Assembly: GCA_029933425.1 (NCBI GenBank)
Contig: JAOZOF010000009.1
Location: forward strand, 1 to 35,033
DNA length: 35,033 bases
Direction: 5' to 3'
Source: Marinilabiliaceae bacterium
GTDB taxonomy: Bacteria > Bacteroidota > Bacteroidia > Bacteroidales > Marinilabiliaceae
A model generated the notes under the pieces. The model saw only the letters and a list, made by a program, of their open reading frames with translations, ran no database searches and was not told where the DNA came from. A program made the position numbers and the translations under genes. Positions 8,830 through 34,810 of the stretch are shown here, one piece after another (within the stretch, counting starts at the first letter, position 1; each line of letters opens with the position of its first letter).

Positions 8830-8964
8830 AATAGCAATTGTTAAATGATAAATAATTGAGAAGTGAGCTTATAAAATTATCTGACTATCCAAAAAATATA
8901 TTTCTATAAATACAAGAATCAGTTAATCACGAATATAAAATCCCAGAACATCCTCATTAATAAA

Positions 8965-8994
8965 ATGGCACATAGAATAGAATAAACCCCTATA
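8965..8994 (-). promoter_or_regulatory. Bipartite motif copy 1 (TATAGGGG-N13-ATGTGCCAT on minus), candidate ECF promoter of the isomerase operon
   Basis: Plus strand reads ATGGCACAT AGAATAGAATAAA CCCCTATA; same half-sites and spacing as two other sites; 135 nt upstream of ATG at 8829. Confidence 0.6.
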
Positions 8995-9182: not shown

Positions 9183-11240
9183 TCATTTAATCTTTATCAA
9201 TTCAATATCATCAAACATCAACCATTCATTAGCAGGAGAATCTGTGTAAAACCCTAAAACACTTTCATTACTTTTAATTTGAATGTTTTCTATTGATATT
9301 TTTCTCCACGTATCAATCTTCTTAATATCATAAGTTAACTTTTCCCCCTCATTTATTTCAATAAATATCTGTGCAACATTTTGATTTCCACTGCTTTTTA
9401 CATATGCGGAAAAATTATACGTACCCTCATGGATATTTGAAATTTTCTGATATGCAGTTACTTCATAGTCAACACTGAAAGACAAAATACCACATAAATC
9501 ACTATTGTCCCCCCCCTCTTTTGACACAAAAGCATAGTACATATTAATATCATTGTTATCGTTAATTGTGGTGTGCCAACCTATCGGCCGGTGTCTTTTG
9601 GTTTGATTTATTTCAAACCCAGGATTAAAGACCAGATTATCACCCATATCAACTCTTGTCTTTTCATAATCAACGTGTTTTCCCGTTACAAGTACTTCTT
9701 TAAAAACATCTAGTCTCACTCTTTCTACAGAACCATCATCAGCCAAGCTAGGGCAAAGCCATCCAGACTCGGTCTGCGAATCCCAGTCAAATACAGTTAA
9801 AATTTGTGCTTCACATGATTCTGGATTGTCTATCACATAATCAAGAGCTTCTTGCAAGCCTTTTCTCATCTCGTCAGGTTTCAATAAGGGTTTATCAACA
9901 CCCCAAACTGCTGCGGTTCTCTCGGAAGCAGCAATACAACCGTCATTTGCTCCTCGCTCGCCGCCAAAATAAGGTGGGTTATCAAGTCTGGTAGAATCAT
10001 TCATTCCTGTTCCAAAGTTTGGCACAATCTTTAATTTATCATTATTTGCATAATAATCCCAAATATCTGCAATAAAACCATTCGTACCATTGTATTCTGA
10101 TCTGGCATCGGCACCTAATGTTGCTGGTTTTCCCCAGAATGCATCAATAATGTAAGGATTGTTAAAACCCGCATCAATAACTGTCTTGCGAAGTATTTCT
10201 AAATTAGCTTCACTAATAGTATTAATAGTATAAAACACAGGTCTGTTATCAAACACTGTTACATAATTTGGTTTCGCCATATATGTAGTTAAACGCTGAC
10301 AATACTCTTCCCACGTTTCAACAAGCGAAGTTTCTCCAGGTTTTCTAAATTTTGTTGGATGCCACAGTTCTAAACAAAATCCAATATCTGTATAATTTGA
10401 CAAGGTGAAATACTGATCAATAGCCCATGTATGTGGACTGTCTTTTTCTCCCATTAGCCAGATAAAGAAATCAATTCCACCATCTATGGCATACTCAATT
10501 TCCTGTTCAAGTGCTTCATTATCGGCATAAACAATTATAGAACGATGATTTTCGGGGCTGTCTGAATTTATCTGTAGATTCTCAGAATGACTTTCTGTTT
10601 TGCTGAAATCAATACATTCATCAATAAACATATTTTTCCATCCGTCATAAGGAGAATTAGAATAATTTATTTCAACTCTGTTAATTTGTGGTGAAGCAGC
10701 AACGTTCTCTTCATTATTCCATTGAATTTTCAAATAATTACCTCCTATATCAAAGAAACCAAAATATTGTACATTAACCCATTCTGGGTCATTGGGTTGC
10801 TTAATTTCATATACTGCTTTCCTTAAAACTTCGGTATCGTTCTCAGGTGGGGAACCAATAAGATTCCAATCTTTTCCGTTCTCTGACACATATAAAATAA
10901 GATCATTGCAAATATCATGTTCAACTTCAGGATCATAAGTGGTATAAATACAATAACCCTGTATGTTTTCGTCAACTTTATAAATTATCTCCTCTTTGGT
11001 ATTTGTTGTTCTAACAAAACGGTCTTGATCATTTTTCTTTTCTGTAAAAAAAGGTCTTAGATGTTTCCACTTTTCAGGAATAAATGCAGCTTGATCATAA
11101 ATCCTCTTGGCTCCAACTCCAAAAGGAGAATATTTACTTACACCAACTTTTACTCCTTTTTTGTTATCATTCACTAATTTTTCTTGTCCGTTACACGCAA
11201 AAACGAGTAGTGTTAATAAAAATACTAATATTTTATTCAT
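9183..11240 (-). CDS. GH99-like/WbsX-like putative glycosidase with N-terminal discoidin-like region and C-terminal CBM-like domain, lipoprotein
   Basis: 685 aa; lipobox LLVFACNGQ; YDGWKNMFIDECIDF...GIDFFIWLMGE...YVTVFDNRPVFYT resembles GH99-like proteins; NPGFEINQTKRHRPIGW...YNFSAYVKSS...WLMFDDIELIKI resembles a beta-sandwich CBM. Confidence 0.5.
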   Translation of the reverse strand: MNKILVFLLTLLVFACNGQEKLVNDNKKGVKVGVSKYSPFGVGAKRIYDQAAFIPEKWKHLRPFFTEKKNDQDRFVRTTNTKEEIIYKVDENIQGYCIYTTYDPEVEHDICNDLILYVSENGKDWNLIGSPPENDTEVLRKAVYEIKQPNDPEWVNVQYFGFFDIGGNYLKIQWNNEENVAASPQINRVEINYSNSPYDGWKNMFIDECIDFSKTESHSENLQINSDSPENHRSIIVYADNEALEQEIEYAIDGGIDFFIWLMGEKDSPHTWAIDQYFTLSNYTDIGFCLELWHPTKFRKPGETSLVETWEEYCQRLTTYMAKPNYVTVFDNRPVFYTINTISEANLEILRKTVIDAGFNNPYIIDAFWGKPATLGADARSEYNGTNGFIADIWDYYANNDKLKIVPNFGTGMNDSTRLDNPPYFGGERGANDGCIAASERTAAVWGVDKPLLKPDEMRKGLQEALDYVIDNPESCEAQILTVFDWDSQTESGWLCPSLADDGSVERVRLDVFKEVLVTGKHVDYEKTRVDMGDNLVFNPGFEINQTKRHRPIGWHTTINDNNDINMYYAFVSKEGGDNSDLCGILSFSVDYEVTAYQKISNIHEGTYNFSAYVKSSGNQNVAQIFIEINEGEKLTYDIKKIDTWRKISIENIQIKSNESVLGFYTDSPANEWLMFDDIELIKIK

Positions 11241-11317
11241 TGTTTGTATGTTATTATTTAAGAAATATTCTTTTTCGTATTAATAATTCCTAAGTCTTTT
11301 AATTTAATTTATTGAGT

Positions 11318-12622
11318 TTAATTTTCTTTTGCAATTTCCAAAATAACAGATCCTCCCGGTTTTAACACCCATTCATCACCAGCATTCCCTCCTTGTATTG
11401 ACGTAGCGTCAATCAATGTAAAAATTTCTTTGACCTTCATATCAGAAGATAGCTTAACTGCAAACTCGGTTGTTTTATCCCAGTTGCTGTTAGATATAAC
11501 AACACGGCTAAGGTTATCTTTCGAAAATGTTCCGATAACAAGATTGGCATTTTTTCCAATTGGTGTAACTAATGGAGAGTTGCCTCCTTCAAGCATTTCT
11601 CCATTCTCATAACGGGCTACATTGGTATTCTTCCAGCCATCGAGCCCGCGCCCTGCTTTGCGCAAGTATAAATTTGCCTCGCGTACATAATCATAAACTT
11701 TAGTACGGTTACCATCTTTATCAATCATTGCATTATAATGTTGCTCTATAAATGGAGCAGCAGCTCCATCTTCCTGAGGCAGTCCCTGATCGGGTGCCGG
11801 AGTCCAGCAACTAAACCAACCATACCCTCGTGCACCATAAGCTAATGCAGTATTTACCTGCCAAAGAATTTCTGCCCTGTTTGGTACACGCAAATAATTT
11901 TTTATTCCTTCGCTTTGAATAAATAACATAAAAGGGATTTTTGCATTTTTTGACTCTTCCCGAACAATTTTTAAATCGTTGAACCAACCGTCTTTTCTTG
12001 TTAACTCTTCTTTAAACGGGTAATAATCATAAGAAAGAAAAGTTGGTTTAACAATGTTAATATATGCTTGAACATATTTTCTGAAACCATCGATGCCTAG
12101 TTGTTCATTGTTTGCAAAAGATGGGAAGATATTAATTAGTGGCTCGTGTTTTGGATCTTCGGATCTGAAAACTTCACAAAAATCTCTTAACGTAGGGAAC
12201 AATTCAGCACTTGGTTCATCCTTTATTAAATATGCTGCCAAGGCCGTATGATCTTTATAATCACTTACAATCTCTTTTATAACAGCAGTATCAACAGGTA
12301 TGTCTGATTTTAATACAAACGGGTTAAGACGTAAATCGATTGGAATGATTTTTATTCCAACTTTTTGTGCAAGATTTAATGCTTTGAAATGTTGTTCAGC
12401 AGTGAAGGTTCCGTTGGCGGGAGCCAGAACATCAATACCTGCATCAGCAATTTCCTTGTAACGTTGTTCATTTACTTCATCAAGTGGTGGTCCACAATAG
12501 GCAAAAATTTTGAATTCGTCTAATAATCCGGTTTTCTCTTGTTTCCTTTTTTCCGACGTACAACTTATACTAAGTATAATAAGAATTAAAGGTATAAAAA
12601 ACTTCTCTTTACTTTTCATCAT
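11318..12622 (-). CDS. Putative (beta/alpha)8-barrel glycoside hydrolase-like lipoprotein
   Basis: 434 aa; lipobox ILSISCTSEK; AAYLIKDEPSAELFPTL (KDEP) and periodic barrel-like segments, ending in a beta-rich C-terminus. Confidence 0.5.
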   Translation of the reverse strand: MMKSKEKFFIPLILIILSISCTSEKRKQEKTGLLDEFKIFAYCGPPLDEVNEQRYKEIADAGIDVLAPANGTFTAEQHFKALNLAQKVGIKIIPIDLRLNPFVLKSDIPVDTAVIKEIVSDYKDHTALAAYLIKDEPSAELFPTLRDFCEVFRSEDPKHEPLINIFPSFANNEQLGIDGFRKYVQAYINIVKPTFLSYDYYPFKEELTRKDGWFNDLKIVREESKNAKIPFMLFIQSEGIKNYLRVPNRAEILWQVNTALAYGARGYGWFSCWTPAPDQGLPQEDGAAAPFIEQHYNAMIDKDGNRTKVYDYVREANLYLRKAGRGLDGWKNTNVARYENGEMLEGGNSPLVTPIGKNANLVIGTFSKDNLSRVVISNSNWDKTTEFAVKLSSDMKVKEIFTLIDATSIQGGNAGDEWVLKPGGSVILEIAKEN

Positions 12623-12643
12623 ATATTTATTTATTATTCACAG

Positions 12644-13522
12644 TTAGTCATCCCAACCATATTTCAGGCCTCCTTCAATTTTCTCGTTCTGATAATCATG
12701 TAATCCCCATGCAAACCAACCACCATCACCCCACCATTGTGCACGGCCATATTTGATATTTTCACCATTAGGTTCTTCGGTTTCAGCGTCCATATCTCCA
12801 CTTCCGTGAACCCAACCAGAATTGTCATCCCACCATACTTCTTCCTGCTTAACAGTTAAACGTTTTTTAGGTCCATCTCCCTGCCACATCGGATTTTCTT
12901 TTTCAACAAAAGGAGTAACAGTATGCTCCCAATAGGCTCTGTTCATAACAATTCCTGTAAAAGGATGAATAATGTCATGCCAAACTTTCAAAACGTATTC
13001 TTCATCATAAAGGTCATATAACATGTATGGGTGTCCTCCTTCAGCACAAACATAGGTAATATCGAACTCTTGGCCTTTATTGTTAATAAGTATAACTTTT
13101 GTACCTTTTAATTTCGCTGTAATTTTACCATTATTATCACCATATCCATATAACCAAACAAAGTTATACCCGCTAACGCTATCGTGTTTTACTCCCCAAA
13201 CTTCCGTGCCTAACTGTTTAGAAAAAATATCCTTTGGTGCACCGGGATATCCCCATTGAACTCCAATTTCTTCTGTATTCTCCCGAAGGTTTGGGATTGT
13301 CTTCCACTGGGAATATAGTTCACCGGTTTTTATATTGGCTACCTGCCCGTTTTTCGCTTTATCTAAAGGGATAAAACGAGTTATATTGCCAAGTTTTTCG
13401 GTTCTCATCATTTTTGAATAATCGACTCCAACCGTAGGTTTATAATCCGGTGTTGTTTTATTATTCTTACATGCAATATTTACAATGATAAGTAATAATA
13501 ATAAGCTATAAGTTCTTTTCAT
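12644..13522 (-). CDS. Trp-rich lipoprotein of unknown family immediately downstream of SusD
   Basis: The ORF track starts at 13567, but ATG at 13522 (MKRTYSLLLLLIIVNIACKNNK) gives a lipoprotein signal. No family recognised. Confidence 0.7.
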   Translation of the reverse strand: MKRTYSLLLLLIIVNIACKNNKTTPDYKPTVGVDYSKMMRTEKLGNITRFIPLDKAKNGQVANIKTGELYSQWKTIPNLRENTEEIGVQWGYPGAPKDIFSKQLGTEVWGVKHDSVSGYNFVWLYGYGDNNGKITAKLKGTKVILINNKGQEFDITYVCAEGGHPYMLYDLYDEEYVLKVWHDIIHPFTGIVMNRAYWEHTVTPFVEKENPMWQGDGPKKRLTVKQEEVWWDDNSGWVHGSGDMDAETEEPNGENIKYGRAQWWGDGGWFAWGLHDYQNEKIEGGLKYGWDD

Positions 13523-13646
13523 TAGATTACTGATTATAAACAAGATTACAAATAAAGCTGTAACCAAATTATTTAAGAATAAGTTAAATTCAAGAATTGA
13601 ATCAAAAGAAAAAAAGAGGAAAGAATTTTAAGAAAAGAAATAAATT

Positions 13647-13764: not shown

Positions 13765-15447
13765 TTACTTCCATAAATCATGCTGTACAAGATTTTCATT
13801 ACGATCCAATTCGGTAGTTGGAATTGGGAATACCTCTAAACGAGGAGCATAAATATGTTCTCTAACAATACTTGGGAATTTAGGGAGGTCAATTTCGTTT
13901 ACTTTATTGTAAGCTTCTTCAAGTTGTCCCCAACGCACAACATTAAAATACCTCCAACCTTCAAAAGCAGTTTCCACTCGCCATTCGTGACGAATTATAT
14001 CAATGTATTCCTGTTGTCCCAATGCACCTTCGGCACCTTCAGCTTCTTCGATGCTTGGCATTCCTACACGTGCACGAACTGCATTAATTGAAGCATTAAC
14101 ATCCGGATCGGTATAATTACCACTCATTATCAGTGCTTCAGCTCTCATTAGTAATACATGTGCATATCTGAATACATAAAAGTCCATAGGTGAATCAAAC
14201 CTGTCATCTGAAGTGTTTGCTTCCTCTCTCCATTTTCTTACTGCATACCCTGTTGGTTCTGCCGCCATATCTGCTGCAGTAATAACCTGATCTATCCATA
14301 AAGCTCCCTCACCACAGACAGTCCCAACTAATCGTGGATCACGGTTTTCCCAAATATTATCAGGGTTATACAATGGATTCATAACTCCTGTTACCGGATC
14401 TTTAATTGGTTTCCCATCAGTGCAATAATAATCATCAACAAGGTTAGAGAGAGGATACAACCAGTAATTTCCAACCTGAGGTCCCCATGTTCCTACAAAA
14501 CTTGATCCATCGTCCTCAGGTCCACGAACAAAAGTAACCGGAAATATAACCTCATAGTTAATTTCACTTTCGGGCTTAAATAATTTCTCATAATTCCCAT
14601 GAAGAGCGAATGTGCCAATTTCCATTACATCTTCAGCATATTCTGCTGCTTTTTCGTAGGTTCCTCCATTGTCGATGTTAAACAAATTTGTTCTTGCCAA
14701 CAGAGCATATGCCGCACCTTGTGTTGCTCTTCCCCAGCCTTCTATTGAATTTGAACGCGGTAAATCATCAACACAATCCAGCAGATCACTTTGTATAAAG
14801 TCAACAATCTCTTTTCTTGAAGTTTTTTCAGGCATGTCTGTAGCTTCCTGTATCTCGGTTACCAGTGGAATATCATGAAACATGCTAACCATATCGGCAT
14901 AAAGTAAGGCTCTTACAAATTTTGCTTCTGCTATTAATCGTTTTGAAACTTCAGGAGATATTTGCTCCTCTGTCATTTCGCCAATCCTAAAAATTGTTTC
15001 ATTGCATCGGGCTATTCCTTTGTAAAACGCAATCCATGTCATTTGAAAATACCAGGTATCAGGAGCCACATTGTTCCTTACAAACCATTCATATTGTTGC
15101 CAATTCCAACGATATACAGCATTATCTGCAATTCCATCCAGATGTATTCCTAAACTTGCAGTCCAATGGGGGCCATTATAAACAAAGTTTTTTTGCAAAA
15201 TATCATAGCACCCCATAACACCCATTGTAGCATCCTTTTCTGTTTTCCAGAAATTACCTGAAGCTAATGAATTTAATTGCTGCTTATCCAGAAAATCATC
15301 TGAACAACTAAACGAGATAAGAAGTAAAAGAGCAATTAAAGAGTTGACTATAGTTCTCCCGTAGTTAATCTTTTTAAGAGAACTAATACGCTGCACAAAT
15401 TTACTTTTGTACAACTCAATATTTTTAAAACGAGATATATTATTCAT
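13765..15447 (-). CDS. susD: SusD/RagB family glycan-binding outer membrane lipoprotein
   Basis: 560 aa; FSCSDDFLDKQ, WKTEKDATMGVMGCYDIL, RAEALIMSGNY, IRHEWRVETAFEGWRYFNVVRWGQ are typical of SusD. Confidence 0.97.
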   Translation of the reverse strand: MNNISRFKNIELYKSKFVQRISSLKKINYGRTIVNSLIALLLLISFSCSDDFLDKQQLNSLASGNFWKTEKDATMGVMGCYDILQKNFVYNGPHWTASLGIHLDGIADNAVYRWNWQQYEWFVRNNVAPDTWYFQMTWIAFYKGIARCNETIFRIGEMTEEQISPEVSKRLIAEAKFVRALLYADMVSMFHDIPLVTEIQEATDMPEKTSRKEIVDFIQSDLLDCVDDLPRSNSIEGWGRATQGAAYALLARTNLFNIDNGGTYEKAAEYAEDVMEIGTFALHGNYEKLFKPESEINYEVIFPVTFVRGPEDDGSSFVGTWGPQVGNYWLYPLSNLVDDYYCTDGKPIKDPVTGVMNPLYNPDNIWENRDPRLVGTVCGEGALWIDQVITAADMAAEPTGYAVRKWREEANTSDDRFDSPMDFYVFRYAHVLLMRAEALIMSGNYTDPDVNASINAVRARVGMPSIEEAEGAEGALGQQEYIDIIRHEWRVETAFEGWRYFNVVRWGQLEEAYNKVNEIDLPKFPSIVREHIYAPRLEVFPIPTTELDRNENLVQHDLWK

Positions 15448-15458
15448 ATTCTTATTTT

Positions 15459-18400
15459 TTAAAAGTTTAGATTAATGCCTAATGAATATACTTTTGTTTG
15501 TGGAAAACTACGTTCCCTCATATCTACAGTAGGCTTCTCCGGATCAAAATCAACTACCTTAGTAAAAGTAAGAAGATTTGTTCCTGAAAAATACAACCTT
15601 ACTGACTTGAGCCCAATATCTGAAATTATTCGTTCAGGAAAAGTATAACCCAGCTCTAAATTCTTCAAACGCAAATATGAGCCGTCTTCAATCCAAAACG
15701 AGGACCAACCATTCCATAAGTTATTAGCCAAATTACCCCATCTAGGCCACGAGCCATCGGTATAAGTTGCAGTATTTACATCTAACACTCTGGTGGTAAA
15801 ATTCATATTGGTTTCGAGAACGTCGGTATTCATAGAATTAAATGTGGTAACATCTGAAACACCTTGCCAAAAACATGAGAAATCAATGCCCCTCCAATCA
15901 AACGATATGTTAAATGAATAGGTAAGCTCAGGGAACGGACTGCCAAGATGAGTTCGGTCATATTGAGTATCAATTACACCATCAGGAACTCCATCAGGCC
16001 CGCTAATGTCTTTATATTTAATATCTCCTGGACGGGCATAAACTCCAAACTGCATCTGACTTTGTGCATCGGCTTCATCTTTAAAAAATCCATCAGCAAT
16101 CAAGCCATAGAAATCATTCATGGGATAACCCAATTCATTAATTGAATGACCACTTATTGATGGCTCTAATCCGCCAAAATCGGTTATCTTATTTGCTATT
16201 TTAGAGATATTACCTGAGATTGAATAATTGAATTCCCCTACATTGTCAACAAAACTTAAGCTAACCTCAAATCCTTTATTTTCAACAGCTCCAACATTTT
16301 GCAATGGACCTACTTCGAAACCCGATGTATACGGAACCGGTAATCGCATTAGAATGTCTTTAGTTGTTTTGTTAAATGCATCAACTGTTAATGCCAGTTT
16401 ATTTTTAAAGAAATTGATATCTAACCCAACATTAGCTATCGTCGTTGTTTCCCATCCAATGTTTGGATTGGTAAGGGAACTAACTGATACTCCCGGCATT
16501 AGTACATTCCCTACAGTATAATCAGCTCCCGTAGATAAAGTTGACTGGAATGCATAATCTCCAATCTCCTGATTACCAAGCACACCCCAGCTACCTCTTA
16601 ATTTAATTACTGATACAGGTCCTATATTTTGCATAAAAGATTCATTTGAAAGTATCCATGCGCCTGAAAATGCAGGGAAAACTCCATAACGGCTTGACTT
16701 TGGGAATCGTGAAGAACCATCAGCCCTAACATTTGCCTCTAACAAATACCTGTCGTAAAGAGAATAGTTTAACCTTCCGAAAAATGATTGCAAACTTGAT
16801 TCTACAGAATATCCTGTAACATCTTTGTCGTTAACACCGGCACTAAGTACATAAATCTCGTCATTGGGAAAATCTTTTACACTACCTGAAAAATCATCGT
16901 GCCTATATGTTTTAATTGAGTGACCGGCAAGAAATTTAAATTTGTTATTTTCGTTAAGATCAAATTTATAAGTAAAAATATTTTCATTTTGAAAAGCTTT
17001 ATCAAGTCCGGAAGCATTCATTGCCTGATTATGGTCGTTTTTCAAAAGTAAAATGTCTTCAGGTGTATACAATGCCCATGATGAAATAAATAATTCATGT
17101 CGATAAAAGGAAATTGTTCCTGATACTGTCGTCTTAAATGTCAGATTCTTTGCTAAATCAAATTCGGCATATCCTCTACTTGTACAAGTATATCCATCAC
17201 TGAAATTATGATTAAGGTCAAAAGAATAATCCGGATTTGGTGCAGGATTCATATTACGAAAAACAGACCCATCTGCAGCTCCATATTTTCCTGTAGTAGA
17301 GTATCTTACAGGAACAGTAGGTTTATAATGAATAACTCCGTCATATTGATTAACAGGAGTATAATTTACATGTTTATTAACAAAACTCATATTTAAGCCG
17401 GCTCTAAACCAGTCAGTAACATCTGCATCAACATTAGCCCTTGTGTTTATTTGCCTGTTCGAAGCTTCATGTATCACTCCCTGCTGATCTAAAAACTGTG
17501 AGGAGATTAAATACTTTACTTTTTTGGTACCTCCACTTAACGAAACATATGCTTTATGCATAGGGGCAATACGGTAAACTTCCTTTAGCCAATCAGTATT
17601 TGCCCAATGGTCAGGATCGGAACCATCTCTCATTTTAGCGATCTCATCAGGATAGTAATAGTAATCTTTGCCTTTCCCCGACTCTTCGCCGATTAAATTC
17701 CATGTTTCTGCCCAAGTGGGAGAATCAAGTAGATCAAGCTTGAGCACACGATCCTGCATTCCATAATTATATTGAACAGAAACTGTAGGTGCACCTGTTT
17801 TACCACGCTTAGTAGTAACAAGTATCACACCGTTAGCTGCCCTTACTCCATAAATAGATGCCGAAGCTGCATCCTTCAAAACAGAAACACTTTCAATATC
17901 GCTTGGAGATAACAAAGCCAGATTGCCTTCAACCCCATCTATTAAAACTAAAGGATTATTATTATTAAATGACCCTAATCCACGTATTGTAATTCTCACA
18001 TCTTCAGAGCCTGGTGCTGGAGAAAGGGACCGTACCGTAACCCCGGCCATTTCCCCTTGCAAAAGGGATGCTGTATTGGCTGCTGGTCTCGTACTTAGTT
18101 TGTCAAATTTAACAGAAGAAACGGAACCTGTTAAATTGGCTTTTTTCTGACTACCATAACCAATAGATACAACTTCATCAAGCCCAATATTTTCCATTTG
18201 CATAGTCACATTAATTGTTGTTTGATTACCAACAACGATCTCCTGAGTTCTCATTCCGATAAACGAATATCGCAAAACTGCTCCATCCGGAATATTAGAT
18301 AAGGAATATTTGCCATTAACATCTGTTATTGTTCCGTTTGTTGTGCCAACAATTACAACAGTAACACCAGGAATAGGGTTTCCCGCCTCATCGGTTACAA

Positions 18401-18827
18401 CCCCTACAACTACCTTTTGCTGGGCAATCATTTTGCTTACTACTTCCCTGTTTGAAAGGACAATTTGCCGGTTATAAACCGTGTATGCAATATCCTTTCC
18501 TCTAAGTAGCTTGTCAAGAATTGAACTAATAGACTCATTTTCAACATTAACATCTACCTTTTGTTCAACATTTACTTGATCTTTACTGTAAATGAAGAAA
18601 AATTCTGATTCAGATTCAATCTTCTCCAATACATTTTCTAGTCGTTTGTTGTTCATGTTCAAAGAAAGCCTGGCAGACTGAGAATACAAATCAACTGCCA
18701 TAACTTGTACTATGCCAACAAATAAGAAAAAAGCAGTAATCCGTGCCATTCTAAATAGTTTTTTTAAGGCAGAACTTTCCTTAGCGGAAAAATTTCGTTG
18801 TGCCTTCATTTTACGATTTTTTTTCAT
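15459..18827 (-). CDS. susC: SusC/RagA TonB-dependent transporter with N-terminal STN signalling domain
   Basis: 1122 aa; STN region (LENVLEKIESESEFFFIYSKDQV...), carboxypeptidase-like GVVTDEAGNPIPGVTVVIVGTTNGTITDVNGKYSL, plug LVLIDGVEGNL...YGVRAANGVILVTTKRG. Confidence 0.97.
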   Translation of the reverse strand: MKKNRKMKAQRNFSAKESSALKKLFRMARITAFFLFVGIVQVMAVDLYSQSARLSLNMNNKRLENVLEKIESESEFFFIYSKDQVNVEQKVDVNVENESISSILDKLLRGKDIAYTVYNRQIVLSNREVVSKMIAQQKVVVGVVTDEAGNPIPGVTVVIVGTTNGTITDVNGKYSLSNIPDGAVLRYSFIGMRTQEIVVGNQTTINVTMQMENIGLDEVVSIGYGSQKKANLTGSVSSVKFDKLSTRPAANTASLLQGEMAGVTVRSLSPAPGSEDVRITIRGLGSFNNNNPLVLIDGVEGNLALLSPSDIESVSVLKDAASASIYGVRAANGVILVTTKRGKTGAPTVSVQYNYGMQDRVLKLDLLDSPTWAETWNLIGEESGKGKDYYYYPDEIAKMRDGSDPDHWANTDWLKEVYRIAPMHKAYVSLSGGTKKVKYLISSQFLDQQGVIHEASNRQINTRANVDADVTDWFRAGLNMSFVNKHVNYTPVNQYDGVIHYKPTVPVRYSTTGKYGAADGSVFRNMNPAPNPDYSFDLNHNFSDGYTCTSRGYAEFDLAKNLTFKTTVSGTISFYRHELFISSWALYTPEDILLLKNDHNQAMNASGLDKAFQNENIFTYKFDLNENNKFKFLAGHSIKTYRHDDFSGSVKDFPNDEIYVLSAGVNDKDVTGYSVESSLQSFFGRLNYSLYDRYLLEANVRADGSSRFPKSSRYGVFPAFSGAWILSNESFMQNIGPVSVIKLRGSWGVLGNQEIGDYAFQSTLSTGADYTVGNVLMPGVSVSSLTNPNIGWETTTIANVGLDINFFKNKLALTVDAFNKTTKDILMRLPVPYTSGFEVGPLQNVGAVENKGFEVSLSFVDNVGEFNYSISGNISKIANKITDFGGLEPSISGHSINELGYPMNDFYGLIADGFFKDEADAQSQMQFGVYARPGDIKYKDISGPDGVPDGVIDTQYDRTHLGSPFPELTYSFNISFDWRGIDFSCFWQGVSDVTTFNSMNTDVLETNMNFTTRVLDVNTATYTDGSWPRWGNLANNLWNGWSSFWIEDGSYLRLKNLELGYTFPERIISDIGLKSVRLYFSGTNLLTFTKVVDFDPEKPTVDMRERSFPQTKVYSLGINLNF

Positions 18828-18882
18828 AAATTTACCGTGTTTGAGTGAATAAATAGTTTAATTGTCTCGCTCTGCAATTATG

Positions 18883-18909
18883 CAGGAAAGTGCTGGTACC
18901 ACTTTCCTG
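18883..18909 (-). other. Perfect 10-bp stem hairpin in the fecR-susC intergenic region
   Basis: CAGGAAAGTG-ctggtac-CACTTTCCTG (plus strand), flanked by ATGC/GCAT. Confidence 0.65.
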
Positions 18910-18932
18910 TTTTGCATTTTTTCAGAGTATTT

Positions 18933-19964
18933 TTATTTTAATTTCATTATTATTTTTTTCTGTTTTACAACTCCTTTTGAATCCGCAACACGTTTTTCTA
19001 TATTATATTTCATAGGAATGGTTATAGCCAACAATTTCAATACTTCTTCTATTGGTTCATCTTTAAAAGTAGCTCTGATACGGAAATCGTTTAACTCCTT
19101 ATCTTCGATAACAATTTTTATATTATACCATCGTTCAATACGGCCAACAACTTCTCCCAAACGTTCATTCTCGATAATCAGATAACCATCTTTCCATGCT
19201 GAATAACGGCTTGCATTAACCTTGCTCAAATTCAACGTTTTCGATTCGTGATTAAATAGTATCTTTTCATTTGGTAATAGTCGTTGATTAAACACCCCTG
19301 TTTTTCCATCAACCTCTATACTACCTTCCTCTAAAACAACAAATGTATATGGAGCATTATCATAAGCTGAAACATTAAACTTAGTTCCTATAACTTTTAT
19401 ATCCATGTCAGGAACACTTACTGTAAAATCTGATTGTTTTTTATGTTTAACACAAAAATACGCCTCACCAGTTAGTTCAACTTTTCTATGTTTACCAAAA
19501 ACTACCGGATATTTTAGTGTAGCCCCACTGTTTAGCCAACCAGATGAACTATCAGGAAGTAAAAATTCAATTCGAGCTCCATCAGGAACATCAATTTTCA
19601 CCCAACCATTAGCAATTGGTTGCTCCGATAAGTACAAATAAAACCATATAGAAGTAGCTAAAACCGGAATCAAAAAGATAGCTGCTACCGATGCTAAACT
19701 GAAACTATACTTTTTCTTAAAATACTTACGTTTGATGCGAGGAATTATAATAGCTGAAAGGATGTTACTCCAAGCCTTAGCTTTATCCGGGTGGAAATCT
19801 GAAGGAATAACCCCGGTTGATTCCCATTCCTCCTTTAAAGCAAGAAAAATACTATGATTTCTTTTGGATAATTGTATCCATCGTTCAAAAGATTCTTTTT
19901 CTTCAGAAGTTATTGTTCCTTTAAAGTATTTATCTATTAACCCCCAAGGTATTCTTTTTGTCAT
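18933..19964 (-). CDS. fecR: FecR family anti-sigma factor
   Basis: 343 aa; single central TM segment; GWVKIDVPDGARIEFLLPDSSSGWLNSGATLKYP...RKVELTGEAYFCVKH and C-terminal secretin/TonB-like end. Confidence 0.95.
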   Translation of the reverse strand: MTKRIPWGLIDKYFKGTITSEEKESFERWIQLSKRNHSIFLALKEEWESTGVIPSDFHPDKAKAWSNILSAIIIPRIKRKYFKKKYSFSLASVAAIFLIPVLATSIWFYLYLSEQPIANGWVKIDVPDGARIEFLLPDSSSGWLNSGATLKYPVVFGKHRKVELTGEAYFCVKHKKQSDFTVSVPDMDIKVIGTKFNVSAYDNAPYTFVVLEEGSIEVDGKTGVFNQRLLPNEKILFNHESKTLNLSKVNASRYSAWKDGYLIIENERLGEVVGRIERWYNIKIVIEDKELNDFRIRATFKDEPIEEVLKLLAITIPMKYNIEKRVADSKGVVKQKKIIMKLK

Positions 19965-19985
19965 CTTTTCTTAATTTTCATTAAT

Positions 19986-20015
19986 ATGGCACATGAAAAT
20001 GCTTTTACCCCTATA
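19986..20015 (-). promoter_or_regulatory. Bipartite motif copy 2, candidate autoregulatory ECF promoter of fecR-susCD
   Basis: Plus strand ATGGCACAT GAAAATGCTTTTA CCCCTATA; 21 nt upstream of the fecR ATG at 19964. Confidence 0.65.
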
Positions 20016-20657: not shown

Positions 20658-20701
20658 AACAATAATAAATTTTAGTTAGTTAAATGTACAAATATTTTAA
20701 A

Positions 20702-20733
20702 TATGAAATGAAAACAATACATTTCATTTCATA
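20702..20733 (-). terminator. Perfect 12-bp inverted repeat 3' of the GH78 gene; possible operon terminator
   Basis: TATGAAATGAAA-acaataca-TTTCATTTCATA, starting 8 nt after the GH78 stop on the minus strand and followed there by TTTAAAATATTT. All-A/T-rich stem, so termination strength is uncertain. Confidence 0.4.
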
Positions 20734-20741
20734 GCTATTTT

Positions 20742-34726: not shown

Positions 34727-34780
34727 ATTGTAACTTCTTCTATTCTCATATAATATCTAATTTTTAATACCACGTATAGA

Positions 34781-34810
34781 ATGGCACATGAGAATGAATT
34801 TCCCCCTATA
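34781..34810 (-). promoter_or_regulatory. Bipartite motif copy 3, candidate ECF promoter of the sulfatase-led operon
   Basis: Plus strand ATGGCACAT GAGAATGAATTTC CCCCTATA; 54 nt upstream of the sulfatase ATG at 34726. Confidence 0.6.

Follow-up and report, generated by a model that had tools for sequence, protein, structure and literature searches.

What reads the two-part element that occurs three times in this stretch of DNA (the window, 35,033 nt in length), and which genes does it control? The window holds a rhamnose-targeting polysaccharide utilisation locus (PUL), with its genes arranged in three colinear blocks on the minus strand. The first block encodes a sulfatase, an S9-like protein, GH78, GH106, YdjC, DUF2961 and a second GH78 protein and, after a gap of 84 nt, an ECF sigma factor. 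The second contains fecR, susC and susD, followed by three genes whose products (685, 434 and 307 aa; positions 9183-13567, minus strand) have no Pfam match and, judging by their position, could be surface glycan-binding proteins. The third encodes an isomerase-like protein, RhaM, URO-D, GH5 and GH78. The fecR gene lies directly downstream of the sigma gene, which belongs to the TIGR02985 family, and the STN domain of SusC (PF07660) spans residues 78-125. The main features are collected in Table 1. From the evidence presented below, we consider it very probable, on sequence grounds, that the element is a promoter recognised by the adjoining FecI-type ECF sigma factor and that it drives three operons.

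Table 1. Coordinates of the regulatory genes and of the predicted promoter elements in the window.
Feature	Positions	Strand	Evidence or composition
ECF sigma factor, FecI-type, 192 aa	20079..20657	-	TIGR02985, 156 bits vs cut-off 126.4
FecR anti-sigma factor	18933..19964	-	PF04773 + PF16344
SusC-type TonB-dependent transporter with STN signalling domain	15459..18827	-	PF07660, PF07715, TIGR04056
SusD lipoprotein	13765..15447	-	PF07980, PF14322
Predicted ECF promoter of fecR-susC-susD	19983..20012	-	-35 AGGGGTA (20006-20012), spacer 14 nt, -10 TGCCATATT (19983-19991); rank 1, 14.2 bits, window-blind model
Second copy	8962..8991	-	-35 AGGGGTT, spacer 14 nt, -10 TGCCATTTT; rank 2, 12.6 bits
Third copy	34778..34807	-	-35 AGGGGGA, spacer 14 nt, -10 TGCCATTCT; rank 3, 11.2 bits
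Motif copies (original register)	8965-8994; 19986-20015; 34781-34810	-	exact match
Gap before sigma gene, 84 nt	20658..20741	-	no ECF box; AU-rich 12-bp hairpin, then AATATTTG

A first-pass annotation of this DNA had described three copies of a motif with 13 nt between its half-sites, all intergenic and facing a minus-strand gene, and scanning the window returned the same picture: TATAGGGG-N13-ATGTGCCAT is matched perfectly at three sites only, each on the minus strand. Only 0.09 matches with up to three mismatches would be expected by chance in the window, and none of 100 shuffled sequences reached three. One copy stands at the head of each gene block, in gaps of 114, 307 and 353 nt. The copy at 19986-20015 lies, as annotated, between the sigma gene and fecR and ends 21 nt before the fecR ATG, while the one at 34781-34810 precedes the sulfatase gene by 54 nt and the one at 8965-8994 the isomerase-like gene by 135 nt. 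The genome-wide scan that had been proposed along with the motif (4.04 Mb in 504 contigs, 86% complete) gave these three places as the only exact matches, all of them within the rhamnose PUL, and allowing two mismatches yielded no further copies in the 4.04 Mb. One could argue that the copies are recent duplications of a single promoter segment, with boxes under no constraint, as all 17 motif letters are identical among them. However, the spacers and flanks differ, and the same boxes at the same spacing precede fecR in unrelated genomes (see below). We thus find a recent duplication hardly credible and agree with the initial view that the conservation is functional.

To place the element among comparable loci, we gathered the regions upstream of fecR from 10 other loci of the same genome, from loci of 393 genomes of the order and from 80 loci of named genomes. 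A two-box model with free spacing was trained on 53 Bacteroidota regions in which the gap between the sigma gene and fecR was at least 25 nt, leaving the window out. The model converged on (T/A/G)G(G/T)GG(T)A-N14-(T/C)GTC.TATT, placing 80% of the weight on a single spacing, and had a likelihood gain of 154.9, compared to 46-58 for four shuffled sets. When both strands of the window were scanned with it, the top three sites were the three copies (scores in Table 1), and the next site scored 11.0 bits. A model built without any locus of this genome ranked the copies 1, 2 and 4, and one derived from a disjoint set ranked them 2, 3 and 4, in shifted registers with the same physical spacing. Among 43 held-out regions, 53% had a site of at least 8 bits (antisense strand 0%, shuffled sequences 4.4%) and 28% one of at least 13 bits (0% in both controls); in a third set (n=38), 34% reached 8 bits, compared to 3% for the antisense strand. 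Regarding the remainder, the model finds no good site between the sigma gene and fecR in about half of the comparable loci, which may rely on different boxes or lack a promoter there, and in Dyadobacter-type loci, where both genes nearly overlap, no promoter between the two was found.

Comparison with the other loci also fixed the register of the element. The conserved unit is AGGGG(T/G)(A/T)-N14-TGCCATNNT; all three copies also share a TAT further upstream and an ATG ahead of TGCCAT, both of which fall outside the family-wide boxes. The 3' half-site was hence originally drawn slightly out of register, and its ATG belongs to the spacer. A -10 read as TGTG with a 12-nt spacer was rejected, as the model favours the 14-nt register. 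The interpretation of the half-sites as the -35 and -10 of an ECF promoter is strongly backed by the blind model, by the covariation between promoter bases and sigma residues and by the rarity of ECF sites before the sigma genes of such loci, the latter two described below; of the specific assignment proposed at first (GGGG as -35 and GTGCC as -10), the two-box reading stands, and the -10 has to be moved to TGCCATNNT. Measured against the class, the window copies have the G-rich -35, the 14-nt spacer and the intergenic position before fecR, and their -10, the counterpart of the family TGTC, is one base off (TGCC).

What is shared with relatives is limited to these boxes. In 60 relatives, matches to the full 17-letter word with up to two mismatches were no more numerous than those to a reversed-pattern control, so the extended word is specific to this locus. 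The relaxed core AGGGG-N16-TGCCAT has five exact matches in the genome, three of them in this locus; with one mismatch it has 57, and since this is little above the 40 of the control, we do not claim a wider regulon. Scanning four related PULs for extra intergenic copies revealed the fecR promoter only, which makes the three-operon regulon particular to this locus.

Several variants of the architecture were seen on the way. Elsewhere in this genome, two further fecR genes are preceded by TAGGGTA-N14-TGTCTTATT (L205, 4327-4356, plus strand) and GGCGGTA-N14-TGTCTTTAA (L209, 7138-7167, plus strand), each the top site of its stretch, both loci being members of the training set. Besides, a clade comprising L052, L054, L058 and L313 has AGGCCTA or AGGTCTA as -35 upstream of fecR, with unchanged spacing and a TGTC -10.

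Two half-sites at fixed spacing could also form an operator for a transcription factor of the HTCS, SusR or Crp-like type, with no promoter read by a sigma factor, and HTCS or SusR proteins are common regulators of PULs. Yet HTCS and SusR sites are direct repeats and Crp-like sites are palindromes (PMC3878776), while TATAGGGG and ATGTGCCAT are unlike each other. Among the 19 window genes that were scanned, no match to the HTCS or AraC families was obtained, and the promoter bases track residues of the sigma factor, as detailed next. An operator is therefore a very unlikely account of the element.

If a sigma factor reads these boxes, its residues and their bases should vary together. Across 55 sigma/promoter pairs, the strongest association linked the column of N85 (region 2.4) to the first -10 base (z = 20), and the second linked K161 (region 4.2) to the third -35 base (z = 18.7). 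At residue 161, K goes with G in 41 of 42 cases and R with T in 17 of 20. In the held-out set C, N85 was paired with T in nine of nine cases and D85 with C in three of three; no R161 sigma of this set had a site, which places the K/R part of the -35 rule outside its reach. We then masked the tested columns and counted changes on a tree of 77 sigmas: there were 11 at residue 85, 12 at the first -10 base and only 12 in their joint state, and the corresponding values for residue 161, the third -35 base and their joint state were 9, 9 and 10. As joint changes barely exceed single ones, residue 85 and the -10 base switch together repeatedly, about a dozen times.

The deviating -10 of this locus has a counterpart in its sigma factor. 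Of 135 sigmas, 124 have N at residue 81; the window sigma and that of L279 have Y, and TGCC occurs in two of 71 sites, those belonging to the same two sigmas: here the near-invariant Asn of region 2.4 has become Tyr, and the -10 has gone from TGTC to TGCC. The five closest sigma homologues (46-52% identity) all have Y81, and a TGCC promoter precedes fecR in four of their five loci (one of them that of L279), although this Y81/TGCC link rests on one clade. In the locus of the fifth homologue (L304/L336) we found GGTGGTA-N14-GGCCTTTTA. Two of the closest homologues have N161 and a GTGG -35, as the code demands. The window sigma combines Y81 and N85 in region 2.4 with K161 in region 4.2, and its promoter bases fit all three rules. 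The PULs of two close sigma relatives encode enzymes of uronate-lyase or host-glycan type and no rhamnosidases, so the promoter follows the sigma factor and not the substrate. Searching by sigma was also the reliable route, searching by FecR being misleading: the nearest FecR (G301, 54% identity) goes with a different sigma and has no such site. Upstream of this fecR gene (L142, 16800-16849, plus strand) there is an inverted repeat, GGGG-TAATAATA-CCCC, with no clear match to the boxes.

Residues 81, 85 and 161 align with N80, N84 and G168 of RpoE (RpoE numbering by our own count). From structural work on an ECF initiation complex it was proposed that the last helix of sigma region 2, at its C-terminal end, might recognise bases immediately upstream of the -10 (PMC6372665), which agrees with the role of residue 85. 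On balance, we think it probable that the FecI-type sigmas of Bacteroidota sugar loci have a single promoter architecture in common, along with a simple residue-to-base code, in which N or D at position 85 goes with T or C and N or Y at position 81 with T or C in the -10, while K as opposed to R or N at position 161 goes with G as opposed to T in the -35.

These data also bear on whether a different ECF sigma encoded in the genome, and not the neighbour, could be the main reader of the promoter. There are at least 10 other FecR loci in this genome, and part of a PUL in B. thetaiotaomicron is under the control of SigW-1, a distant sigma (PMC12596196). However, it is the neighbouring sigma that has Y81, N85 and K161, which match these bases elsewhere, Y81 being rare, and the exact motif is confined to this PUL. 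We consequently give a different sigma only a small chance and take the adjoining one as the most likely reader of the promoter.

Under the preferred reading, AGGGG(T/G)(A/T) would be the -35, contacted by sigma region 4.2, and TGCCATNNT, 14 nt downstream of it, would be the -10, contacted by region 2.4. Release of the sigma factor through FecR following a signal from the transporter is established for FecI/FecR systems. By analogy, the sigma factor would be held by FecR until the STN domain of SusC signals the import of a ligand, whereupon FecR would release or activate it. The free sigma factor could then initiate transcription at three promoters, serving fecR-susC-susD and two enzyme blocks with rhamnosidases, a sulfatase and an isomerase, with starts predicted near 19977, 34772 and 8956. 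With fecR in the regulon, the circuit would raise the transducer (SusC) and the anti-sigma factor together. The idea of positive feedback through FecR-SusC-SusD, put forward in the first-pass annotation, told only half the story, FecR itself being the anti-sigma factor.

Regarding the expression of the sigma gene itself, its lack of the motif was noted at the outset, and indeed there is no copy directly upstream of it, in the 84-nt gap. The gap contains AATATTTG, one mismatch away from the housekeeping -7 box TAnnTTTG. Before the sigma genes of sigma/FecR loci, TAnnTTTG is present in 32 of 58 cases, compared to 9.6 expected, and a strong ECF site (at least 12 bits) in three of 58 only, so separate expression of the sigma factor is the rule in such loci. 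Separate expression has also been stated for FecI-like systems (PMC8103513). At the same time, the sigma gene closes the block that begins with the 34781 copy, which makes autoregulation by read-through possible. The suggestion that the sigma factor is expressed separately therefore agrees with what is usual in such loci, with the proviso that read-through from the 34781 block may replace or accompany it. In a published case, growth was not lost when the PUL24 sigma BT1877 was deleted (PMC11501099), indicating that basal transcription can come from elsewhere. In L133, L095 and L109 an ECF-type site (AGGGGGA or AGGGGTA with TGTCTTNNT) is located before the sigma gene and not before fecR, so the sigma factor there would be directly autoregulated; the apparent sites upstream of fecR in these loci are probably due to chance, the strong site being the one before the sigma gene.

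In order to contextualize these results, we compared the locus with known systems. The FecI/FecR/FecA arrangement for ferric citrate in E. coli resembles it in encoding the sigma factor, FecR and an STN TonB-dependent transporter together, with the sigma gene not behind its own promoter. Here, unlike in E. coli, the transporter is of the SusC/SusD sugar type, there are three operons, and the promoter lies between the sigma gene and fecR, which brings the anti-sigma gene into the regulon. Classical ECF promoters, hallmarked by AAC in the -35 (PMC8103513) and having CGT at the -10 (E. coli RpoE type), likewise consist of two boxes at fixed spacing, and the family (T/C)GTC is the counterpart of CGTC. 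Their -35 differs from that of this class, in which G predominates (GGGG or GTGG), and the -10 of this locus has TGCC and not GTC. Having AGGGG and no AAC, the window element is not filed as a classical ECF promoter. In Bacteroides PUL24, the BT1877/BT1876 sigma/FecR pair is also found beside SusC/SusD; the starts mapped in that system include ones that lack a housekeeping box, and no recognition sequence was given (PMC11501099), whereas the present locus has defined boxes in three copies. Promoters with a CGT box at the -10 in Flavobacterium psychrophilum SM6 bear a likeness and were attributed to ECF sigmas, but they are linked to type IX secretion genes and not to sugar loci (PMC9723704).

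B. thetaiotaomicron has 50 ECF sigmas, nearly half of them located in PULs (PMC12596196), yet according to a transcriptome study from 2020 none of the alternative ECFs of this species had a known recognition motif (PMC7366714). In regulon reconstruction, predicting ECF promoters has been called a challenging task (PMC3878776). Three concordant copies, together with a residue-to-base code in which the -10 rule also applied to unseen loci, suggest that such regulons are predictable and lend themselves to direct swap experiments; if the code is true, the regulons of ECF-governed sugar loci could be predicted from the sigma sequence alone. Going by its citation in PMC8103513, a general ECF residue/base code has already been published (Todor 2020), so the approach is not new, and part of this promoter class may already be listed there or in the ECF reclassification.

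Finally, an Rfam search gave no match, and this includes the strong hairpin that we noticed in the gap between fecR and susC (18828-18932, minus strand). It has a GC-rich stem of 10 bp (CAGGAAAGTG/CACTTTCCTG), with -22.6 kcal/mol for the gap, and is possibly an attenuator or an RNA-stability element that separates the expression of the anti-sigma factor from that of the transporter.
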